Of a stretch of 64,000 bases of DNA, positions 15,639 through 18,161 are shown piece after piece. A program made the translations under genes and the position numbers. The stretch comes from Methanomicrobium sp. W14. Lineage in GTDB: Archaea > Halobacteriota > Methanomicrobia > Methanomicrobiales > Methanomicrobiaceae. The stretch spans positions 434,001-498,000 of the forward strand of contig NZ_JAGGMM010000001.1 of NCBI RefSeq assembly GCF_017875315.1. The letters are read 5' to 3'. A model generated the notes under the pieces. That model had not been told where the DNA came from. It did no database searches and saw only the letters and a list, made by a program, of their open reading frames with translations. How positions within the stretch are numbered: position 1 is the stretch's first letter; each line of letters begins with the position of its first letter.

Positions 15639-15663
15639 CAATTAATCCTAGTCGGATTAATTG
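15639..15663 (-). terminator. Hairpin terminator after mrp
   Basis: A perfect 10-bp inverted repeat, CAATTAATCC-TAGTC-GGATTAATTG, overlaps the last codons of the leftward mrp gene. On the minus strand it is followed within a few bases by a run of six T residues. It looks like a transcription terminator separating mrp from npdG. Confidence 0.6.
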
Positions 15664-16559
15664 TCTTCTTCCTTTATTTCTTCCAGTATGTTTTCCATTA
15701 CTTTTTCGACGTGCTCCCATGTAGCCTTGTTCTGTTCTGTACCGTCGTGGCGGACGATAAAAGGCCTTCCTTCGTCGCCTGACTTTCTAAGGTCAGGGTC
15801 CATGGGTATGGCGCCGAGGAAGGGAACTTTAAGTTCTTTTGCGGCTTTCTTTCCCCCGCCTGCACCGAAGAGGTCTATCTTTTCACCACAGTGCGGGCAC
15901 ACGTAGCCGCTCATGTTTTCTATGATGCCCAGAACTTTAATACCCAGTTTTTCTACGAACATAACCGACTTTGATGAGTCAAGGATTGCAACTTCCTGTG
16001 GTGTTGTCACAATAACTGCTCCTGCGATATTTGGAGCAAGCTGTGCAACAGAAAGTGCTTCGTCTCCTGTTCCCGGAGGGAGGTCAACTACCAGAAAGTC
16101 TAAAGACCCCCAGTTTACATCTTCAAGAAACTGCCTGATTGCGGTATTCTTCATGGCGCCTCTCCATATGACAGGGCTTGTTTTGTCAGGCAGAAGAAAA
16201 GCCATTGAAACGACACTGAGGTTTCCCGTAACCATTACAGGCTCAATGTGCTTTCCGTCCATTGATGAAAGTTTTTCATCTTCAATGCCAAGCATTTTTG
16301 GAATATTGGGGCCGTGGATATCAACATCTGCAATACCGGTTTTATAGCCTTTGTTTGCAAGTGACATTGCAAGATTTGTCGCAACTGTGCTCTTGCCCAC
16401 ACCGCCTTTGCCGCTTAAAACCAGTATTACGTGCTTTACGTCCATGTCAATCTTTGGCGGAAGACCTGAGTTTGCTTTTTTAGGGTCATTGCAGGATGCC
16501 GCAGATGCACATCCGCTGCAGTTTCCGTCGCATTCAGAACCCTGTTTATTTTCAACCAT
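15657..16559 (-). CDS. Mrp/NBP35-type Fe-S cluster carrier ATPase
   Basis: A 300-residue P-loop ATPase of the Mrp/ApbC family that carries [4Fe-4S] clusters to target proteins. The N-terminus has the Cys motif CDGNCSGCASAASC (residues 10-23). The deviant Walker A is GKGGVGKST at residues 50-58, and the bridging CxxC is in GYVCPHCGE near residue 216. Switch motif DLPPGTGDE is present. In methanogens, many methanogenesis and nitrogenase enzymes need such clusters. It is transcribed alone or with the genes to its left, and has a hairpin terminator at its end. Confidence 0.93.
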   Translation of the reverse strand: MVENKQGSECDGNCSGCASAASCNDPKKANSGLPPKIDMDVKHVILVLSGKGGVGKSTVATNLAMSLANKGYKTGIADVDIHGPNIPKMLGIEDEKLSSMDGKHIEPVMVTGNLSVVSMAFLLPDKTSPVIWRGAMKNTAIRQFLEDVNWGSLDFLVVDLPPGTGDEALSVAQLAPNIAGAVIVTTPQEVAILDSSKSVMFVEKLGIKVLGIIENMSGYVCPHCGEKIDLFGAGGGKKAAKELKVPFLGAIPMDPDLRKSGDEGRPFIVRHDGTEQNKATWEHVEKVMENILEEIKEEDN

Positions 16560-16840
16560 TGTAATCTCTCCAATATACGTGGAAATTTAAATTTTGTGTG
16601 TAAATATTCAAAATTATTTAAGATAAATGTATCAATACTGTCATCTGCCTCTGGTTTGGTCATTATGCCTGAGTAAAAGTTTATATTGATAAATGAAGGC
16701 ATTATATGAGAATATTTTCCTGAATATAGATAACTTCTTTGTTTTCTCCATAACTATATATTATATATAAAGCGAAATATTTATTAAAATGACTAATACA
16801 TAGATTATTGCCTGTTAATTCAGAAGCGTGGGTGTAGGTC

Positions 16841-17536
16841 ATGTACTTCAGCAGAATTAAGATGTCGCATAAAGCAAGAAATGACAAACAATTCTGGGAG
16901 CAGACAAAGGACGAATATTCCCTTTGCTGGCTGTTCAAGCAGCTTTTCATGAAAAAAGAGAATTCTGAAACTCGTTTTATATTCCGCCAGGAATTTGGGT
17001 CTTGTTATCCGTCCTTTGTTTCTGTGTCTGAATCAATTCCGGGAGACGAATCAGAAAACTGGCATATATTTTCTGAAGTCTATAACCCTTCTCCTGAATG
17101 CGGGGATATTTATAATTTTTCTCTGCGCCTGTGCCCGGTTATTATGCAGAGAGAATCACATTTTTTAATCCGTTATGATTTTGTCCAGGATGCACTTTGC
17201 AGGAGAAAGAAAAATCTTTTCTCAAAAATTGAATTTTGTGACAGTTCAGATGTAATAAAGGACGCTGTAGCAGAATGGCTTATGAAAAATTCAGACCGGT
17301 GCGGTTTTTTGCCCCTTGAGGGTTCCCTTCGTGCCGACGGTTTTATGCAGCATAAATCGTGTATATCTGACGGCATCAGAATACCTGCATACAATACAGT
17401 TGAAATCTCCGGACTGTTAAAGGTGAATAATACGGAAAAACTAAGAAAAACCCTTTTTGATGGTATTGGAGAGTATCGTAGCCTCGGATGCGGTATGATT
17501 TTTGTAAAAGACCTGACTCCACAGGTTTTAGTCTGA
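16841..17536 (+). CDS. cas6e: Orphan Cas6e-like CRISPR RNA endonuclease
   Basis: A 231-residue RAMP protein resembling Cas6e (type I-E pre-crRNA endonuclease). Matches to the family: N-terminus MYFSRI, FIFRQE near residue 47, FSLRLCPVIM near 92, LLKVNN and the glycine-rich loop GIGEYRSLGCGM at the C-terminus. In Escherichia coli the catalytic His20 sits in YQLHQGLWHLF; here the aligned segment is TKDEYSLCWLF with Glu25 at that position. The catalytic residue therefore seems to be lost, while H10 could be a substitute. No CRISPR array and no cas5, cas7, cas8 or cas3 gene lies in this window. A TATA box (16751-16771 region) and GGTGTAGGTC precede the ATG. It could be a relic, or a repurposed RNA-binding protein. 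Confidence 0.75.
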   Translation: MYFSRIKMSHKARNDKQFWEQTKDEYSLCWLFKQLFMKKENSETRFIFRQEFGSCYPSFVSVSESIPGDESENWHIFSEVYNPSPECGDIYNFSLRLCPVIMQRESHFLIRYDFVQDALCRRKKNLFSKIEFCDSSDVIKDAVAEWLMKNSDRCGFLPLEGSLRADGFMQHKSCISDGIRIPAYNTVEISGLLKVNNTEKLRKTLFDGIGEYRSLGCGMIFVKDLTPQVLV

Positions 17537-17547
17537 TTAAAAGAGCA

Positions 17548-17895
17548 TTAACTTCTGTCTGAAGTTTTAACGACTGTATTTTGGTTTTTCTTTATCTTGG
17601 TTATGCACTGGCACAGATCACAGATTGTAACCGATCCTTCGCCTGTGATTACTCCGTCTGCCCATGCATTGATAATTTCATTCAGTTCATCAGAGATTTG
17701 AATATCCCCAAAACCCCTTTTGCGGCTAATATACTGACATACTGCCGCTCTTGTGATCCCCATCCATTTTGAAACCTTTACCTGTGATATGCCTCTCTCT
17801 GTTACCAGACGAAAGACCAGTTCCGCCCTTACCTGTGGAAGATATACTCTTGCAATCTCGTCACAGGTCATTATATCACATTGGTACGTATTCAT
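17548..17895 (-). CDS. XRE-type HTH regulator (COG2522-like)
   Basis: A 115-residue putative transcription regulator. The helix-turn-helix lies near residues 33-56 (ERGISQVKVSKWMGITRAAV, in which the recognition helix begins near SKWMGI). The C-terminus has CDLCQCI, suggesting a small metal site. It overlaps the upstream HTH gene by 4 nt (ATGA), so the two are co-translated. It converges with the cas6e-like gene, the stops being 11 nt apart. Target unknown. Confidence 0.8.
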   Translation of the reverse strand: MNTYQCDIMTCDEIARVYLPQVRAELVFRLVTERGISQVKVSKWMGITRAAVCQYISRKRGFGDIQISDELNEIINAWADGVITGEGSVTICDLCQCITKIKKNQNTVVKTSDRS

Positions 17896-18161
17896 GTTGT
17901 TGCCATTTCCATGGTATTTTCAGATTTTGGAATTATGTGCTTCTGATATAATACTTGTCTGGCATCCTTGAAATTGAACTTTTCGATTATGAGTTCGCTC
18001 TCTTTAAGGCGCTTTAATGCGTACCTTATGGTTCTTGGTGCTATGTCTGCTTCATTGGTGACATCCTTGAATGTTTTTGGTTTTCCATCTTCGAGAATCT
18101 GGAGAACTACCCTTGCTGATGGGGGAAGCCTCAGCTTGTTAACAGTGTTAACGTCTACCAT
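17892..18161 (-). CDS. Small winged-helix regulator
   Basis: An 89-residue MarR/Lrp-like winged-helix protein: LPPSARVVLQILEDGKPKTF leads into TFKDVTNEADIAPRTIRYALKRL (helix-turn-helix around residues 33-52), then a wing with QVLYQKHI. First gene of a two-gene leftward operon with the XRE-type regulator. Its promoter is visible: minus-strand TATA at about 18181-18200 (rev. comp. of ATCCATATATAAATATTT). Possibly autoregulated. Function unknown. Confidence 0.8.
   Translation of the reverse strand: MVDVNTVNKLRLPPSARVVLQILEDGKPKTFKDVTNEADIAPRTIRYALKRLKESELIIEKFNFKDARQVLYQKHIIPKSENTMEMATT

Follow-up and report, generated by a model that had tools for sequence, protein, structure and literature searches.

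A highly diverged Cas6e derivative standing alone in a Methanomicrobium genome, a candidate non-cleaving protein with a changed ligand

In this study, we found that the 2.54-Mb genome of Methanomicrobium sp. W14 (99% complete) carries one isolated Cas6e-like gene, in which the column of the catalytic histidine holds a cysteine. The gene lies in the window, that is, the whole stretch of 64,000 nucleotides (64 kb) that was analysed. Its product would be a far-diverged offshoot of the type I-E nuclease Cas6e, and the gene would survive on its own, the other I-E components having been lost or never having arrived with it. We give about even weight to the reading that it is a fold-maintained, non-cleaving Cas6e derivative with a changed ligand. 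The gene and its predicted active-site helix are located as follows.

16841..17536, plus strand: gene for a Cas6e-derived RAMP protein of 231 aa (Cas6e profile matches, alignments, AlphaFold model and Foldseek)
16913..16948, plus strand: helix alpha-1, residues 25-36 (EYSLCWLFKQLF), the Cas6e catalytic helix (DSSP of the model and alignment)

The frame is intact, with 231 codons and no frameshift, stop or truncation. The protein matches the Cas6e profiles TIGR01907 (78.7 bits, cut-off 45.2) and PF08798 (77.7 bits, cut-off 25) as well as three Cas6e models of PADLOC, and the profile matches span residues 1-224, essentially the whole length. Both an open frame and a full-length Cas6e match had been claimed in the original prediction, and both are borne out. 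As judged by these profiles, the homology to Cas6e is genuine, since scores so far above the curated cut-offs exclude chance. Ordinary Cas6e proteins of the same order reach about 159-179 bits with PF08798 against about 77 for the lone gene, which is thus a strongly diverged member of the family.

The Cas6e signature YxxHxxxWxLF reads YSLCWLFKQLF in the lone protein. Cys29 (codon 16925-16927) stands in the column of His20, and Lys33 corresponds to Trp24 of E. coli Cas6e. The block from Y26 to R49 aligns without a gap to 32 Cas6e proteins of the same order, with Y26-S-L-C29-W-L-F-K33-Q-L35-F36-x7-T44-R45-F46-I-F-R49 facing Y-x-x-H-x-x-x-W-x-L-F-x7-R-D-F-L-Y-R of the family. In a wider alignment of 71 archaeal and bacterial relatives, the nearly invariant histidine also falls in the Cys29 column, and when the relatives' profile was compared with PDB chains, H20 of E. 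coli (YQLHQGLWHLF) and H26 of T. thermophilus (YEMHRTL) fell in the same column. For the E. coli row of the alignment behind the gap-free block and the basic columns, the comparison with PDB chains independently gave the same register. The catalytic histidine is present in every relative whose sequence was readable across this column; those with no reading there are three matches starting downstream and the stop-broken cas6e of genome G500 (L205/L194), whose stop lies just before the column with the histidine still visible. The active-site tyrosine of the YxxH motif is kept as Y26. The glycine-rich loop GIGxxRxxGCG is also kept, with Arg213 in place of the loop lysine.

The loss of the catalytic histidine claimed in the original prediction is therefore confirmed, whereas its placement of a glutamate at the His20 position is not. 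The Glu25 register is off by four residues, as the wrong LF pair had been matched (31-32, where 35-36 is correct). It was rejected because four extra residues would have to be inserted in the Y26-R49 block, which is gap-free in the relatives of the order. By alignment, no other histidine such as His10 appears to take the place in the active site.

An AlphaFold2 model of the lone protein, with an alignment of 72 sequences as input, had a mean pLDDT of 90.7 and a pTM of 0.85. In the model, residues 25-36 form a helix, the one that bears the active site in Cas6e. A Foldseek search of the PDB returned Cas6e/Cse3 chains as all of the best 29 matches, with T. thermophilus Cse3 at the top (3qrp_A, E 3.3e-13, TM 0.68/0.72), whereas Cas6 families other than Cas6e reached a TM of only about 0.3-0.4. 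This likeness is partly expected, because the input alignment consisted of His-bearing Cas6e relatives. With this qualification, the model supports the idea that the double-RAMP Cas6e fold is kept, in agreement with the fold that had been anticipated for this protein.

Conservation in the lone protein is uneven. There are 41 invariant positions (conserved in at least 90% of relatives), 29 of them non-polar and 12 polar. The lone protein keeps 23 of the 29 non-polar positions but 5 of the 12 polar ones (Fisher p 0.029, a modest significance, and this as well as every other decay test rests on one sequence), against a median retention of 93% and 100%, respectively, in relatives. In the order-level set, the residues lost include H29, W33, D38, R44, D45, K79, N98, H112, K119, S185 and K213, and glycines, prolines and the hydrophobic core are mostly retained. 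Of the conserved basic RNA-contact positions, defined as columns with a basic residue in 60% or more of relatives, 11 of 25 are kept, whereas no relative tested keeps fewer than 62%. The pI of the lone protein is 6.9 and its net charge is -0.2, whereas the Cas6e proteins of the order mostly have a pI of 8.5-10 and a net charge of +2 to +12. One relative, G025, is likewise net negative, so charge alone is not decisive.

No I-E system accompanies the gene. Cse1 had no match anywhere in the genome, and I-E repeats numbered 0 both in the 64-kb window and genome-wide, allowing up to 3 mismatches. The array scan and the repeat scan found no CRISPR array in the window; in the parts of the genome beyond the stretches that were read, arrays were sought by the I-E repeat pattern only. 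The genome does carry an I-B locus with cas4, cas2, cas1, Cas8b, Cas7, Cas3 and two arrays, and a type III locus with a short array, assigned to III-A by gene order. The original prediction, in which an array and other cas genes were missing from the 64 kb, therefore holds for arrays in the window, but the genome as a whole contains I-B, III-A and a solitary cas1. I-E arrays elsewhere in the genome, which the original prediction had suggested looking for, were not seen at up to 3 mismatches. Both the I-B and the III-A systems have their own Cas6b, and the lone gene is thus left with no obvious RNA-processing job. An I-E cas neighbour was present in 135 of 135 other Cas6e locus records and absent from both records of the lone gene (137 in total, including repeats, as some single loci were fetched twice), and I-E cas genes were also present in eight further stretches re-read from relatives.

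Two further observations were made on the CRISPR content of this genome. In its type III locus, Csx14-like and TM1812/DxTHG-motif accessory genes lie at L015:13210-15221, some kilobases ahead of the effector genes, and are likely to serve cyclic-oligoadenylate signalling. The lone cas1 (341 aa, TIGR00287 121 bits) lies outside the window at L019:14173-15198 (G000:C2, about 464173-465198), has no recognised cas gene among its neighbours, and is possibly a cas1-solo.

The lone protein might still cut RNA as an atypical nuclease, through a lysine network, through Cys29/Tyr26, or through His10, which lies in the helix preceding alpha-1. The Cas6 of Sulfolobus solfataricus (Sso1437) likewise lacks the canonical catalytic histidine, yet it is an active enzyme that relies on several basic residues. 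The position of this histidine varies among Cas6 families, and PfuCas6 has it in a helix preceding alpha-1 (PMC3652601). Retention of Tyr26, the arginine at 213 and the glycine-rich loop also fits such an enzyme. However, Sso1437 processes CRISPR RNA and belongs to another Cas6 family, one of those that resemble the model only at the low TM values given above. In the lone protein conserved basic positions were lost, not gained, and the genome offers no I-E substrate and already has a Cas6b in both resident systems. We consider this explanation improbable.

It was proposed in the original prediction that the protein sequesters crRNA or another hairpin RNA; directed at the I-B and III-A systems of this genome, it could be, for example, a host-encoded CRISPR brake. 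Both loci have arrays, and in E. coli, Cascade with an inactive Cas6e co-purifies crRNA at normal yield (PMC4499155). However, the basic RNA-contact positions of the lone protein are eroded and its net charge is about 0, the genome offers no I-E repeat for it to capture, the repeats of the resident arrays differ from I-E hairpin repeats, and the gene lies near neither system. We therefore regard this role as very improbable. The proposal of a repurposed protein that kept its fold and lost its activity fares better, in that the loss of the histidine, the fold and a non-neutral pattern of change are supported, whereas sequestering of crRNA or another hairpin is not.

The highest identity of the lone protein to any relative found was 34% (Methanocalculus G065, Methanosarcinaceae). 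No orthologue, and nothing above this value, was found in 232 genomes of the order, 393 genomes of the phylum or the genome collection, and the gene was absent from 27 genomes of the same family. A single-protein scan of the genome collection found nothing; a profile scan gave loci that all had I-E neighbours among the best 80, its patterns including motifs missing from the lone gene, so that true orthologues would escape them. Collections of viruses, phages and plasmids contained nothing close, and a source of this kind was rejected on that ground. The I-E Cas6e proteins of congeners (G001/G003) are only 26-27% identical to the lone protein, and a recent copy of a congener's gene was rejected for this reason. 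In the tree, which leaves its placement unsettled, the lone gene has the longest end branch: 2.71 substitutions per column, where the median is 0.21 (a 13-fold difference) and the next-longest 1.35. The possibility of a recent broken copy absent from all relatives is half right: the gene is absent from relatives, but it does not look recent and shows no visible break.

The gene lies at a junction between conserved neighbours, whose features are as follows.

15657..16559, minus strand: Mrp/NUBPL-type iron-sulphur carrier ATPase on the left flank (Pfam PF10609; synteny-conserved neighbour)
16645..17590, no strand: genome-unique segment at the mrp/HTH junction (flank blastn against G003, G004 and G006; synteny)
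17548..17895, minus strand: HTH protein 1 on the right flank, family-conserved with or without the Cas6e-like gene
17892..18161, minus strand: winged-helix HTH protein 2 on the right flank, a conserved neighbour

Against G003, the nearest congener whose site is empty, the sequence aligns as far as 16644 and resumes at 17591, and the intervening segment of about 946 bp is private to this genome; in G003, its place is taken by AT-rich DNA of about 274 bp that is not related to it. The order mrp, HTH1, HTH2, dapE, moaA, rlmE is constant in the family genomes examined, and 24 of 28 genomes of the family encode an HTH1 homologue, so these neighbours are housekeeping genes and not partners. The HTH pair, which the gene had been said to face as an operon, was accordingly rejected as a specific partner, being conserved whether or not the Cas6e-like gene is present. 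The search of related genomes showed that the HTH neighbours are conserved, but it gave neither an orthologue nor a shared locus position. None of the relatives examined had a Cas6e-like gene at the mrp/HTH junction, and no conserved partner gene was found. A former I-E locus at the junction was also rejected, as there were no repeats and no Rfam CRISPR match; where family genomes have I-E loci, these are elsewhere, wherever checkable.

In G004 and G006, a dGTPase gene occupies the same junction, and the dGTPase directly adjoins HTH1 in G011, G012, G016 and G017; in all six genomes it is convergent with HTH1. The host genome has no match to the dGTPase. Comparison of these sites thus points to a one-gene insertion or replacement where a dGTPase commonly sits. 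The HTH1-side dGTPase genes lie at L090:5864-7015 in G004 and L094:4180-5355 in G006 (PADLOC dGTPase model; NCBIfam dGTP triphosphohydrolase models), and the one in G004 has an IS1634-family transposase inserted next to it.

The TATA box that had been assigned to the gene is poor evidence for a promoter of its own. The box TTTATATA at 16764-16771, between the divergently oriented mrp and Cas6e-like genes, fits the consensus when read on the minus strand, towards mrp. The evidence for a plus-strand promoter is ambiguous and such a promoter is uncertain; a sigma-70 promoter scan is uninformative for archaea.

The gene may be a decaying relic, either the final survivor of an I-E system otherwise lost or a fragment acquired by itself, that has no function and whose frame is still open by chance. 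Its occurrence in a single genome, the lack of an orthologue at this site in other members of the family, its many missing functional residues, its long branch and its lack of a conserved partner are what would be expected of a relic. Isolated cas loci, which could be remnants, occur frequently (PMC5294841). However, neither a further I-E remnant nor a repeat or pseudogene was found next to the gene, and the open frame, native codon bias and kept core are difficult to reconcile with neutral loss of 13 of the 41 invariant positions. Neutral decay was simulated with six relatives that look functional as starting points, each run ending when 13 invariant positions had been lost. The frame stayed free of stops in 1-4% of runs; with indels included, at an assumed rate of one per ten substitutions, about 0% of runs escaped stops as well as frameshifts. 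Polar losses as many as those observed arose in 1-3% of runs. Synonymous codon choice in the lone gene is like that of neighbouring genes, with 0 of 2000 null sequences as good. Together, the retained core, the losses skewed to polar sites, the simulations and the native codons suggest that selection kept the protein folded during most of its divergence. A functionless relic is therefore unlikely, though by no means far-fetched.

The non-cleaving derivative with a changed ligand is the reading we prefer. To go by its active-site residues, the lone protein would no longer cut I-E repeat RNA, and it may be, now or until recently, exapted as a pseudo-Cas6e. Most likely it would bind a different ligand, a cellular RNA or a protein partner, through the retained RAMP face with the glycine-rich loop; capture of crRNA hairpins is improbable. 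In its full form, this scenario is that a Cas6e departed from CRISPR and was exapted in one methanogen lineage as a stand-alone, non-cleaving cellular protein whose new ligand replaced the I-E hairpin; we offer it tentatively, at rather less than even weight.

Known members of Cas6e/Cse3/CasE (TIGR01907, PF08798; E. coli CasE 4dzd, T. thermophilus Cse3 3qrp) share with the lone protein the full-length profile match, the predicted fold, Y26 and GIGxxRxxGCG. The lone protein differs from them in having cysteine at 29 for histidine and arginine at 213 for lysine, in the loss of most basic positions, in its gene lacking Cascade genes and I-E repeats, and in an identity of at most 34% to the members found. 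The H20A mutant of E. coli Cas6e, in which RNA association survives the loss of cutting (PMC4499155), has lost the same catalytic position; it is, however, a single laboratory substitution with intact RNA contacts, studied within Cascade. A paralogue of Pyrococcus furiosus Cas6 (PDB 3ufc) has the Cas6 fold and is described as non-catalytic (PMC3652601), but it belongs to a different Cas6 family (TM about 0.35 to our model) and its organism also has a catalytic paralogue. Thus, Cas6 proteins without the histidine or without catalysis are already known in other Cas6 families (PMC3652601), as are isolated cas loci (PMC5294841). A lone Cas6e without the histidine was not found described in the limited body of literature consulted.

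Cas proteins have mostly been studied inside their systems. The lone copy without the histidine is an outlier among the sampled Cas6e loci and shows how the fold drifts once freed from CRISPR. If functional, it would exemplify how nature can convert a CRISPR nuclease to another role; if dying, it would provide a clean snapshot of the final stage in the loss of a CRISPR system.

A different state of a cas6e gene was observed in G500, an archaeon of the same phylum (L205, G500:C2:977000-983000; L194). The in-frame stop before its catalytic histidine occurs with cas1, cas5, cas7 and cse2 still present as neighbours, and this gene possibly represents an early stage of cas6e loss.
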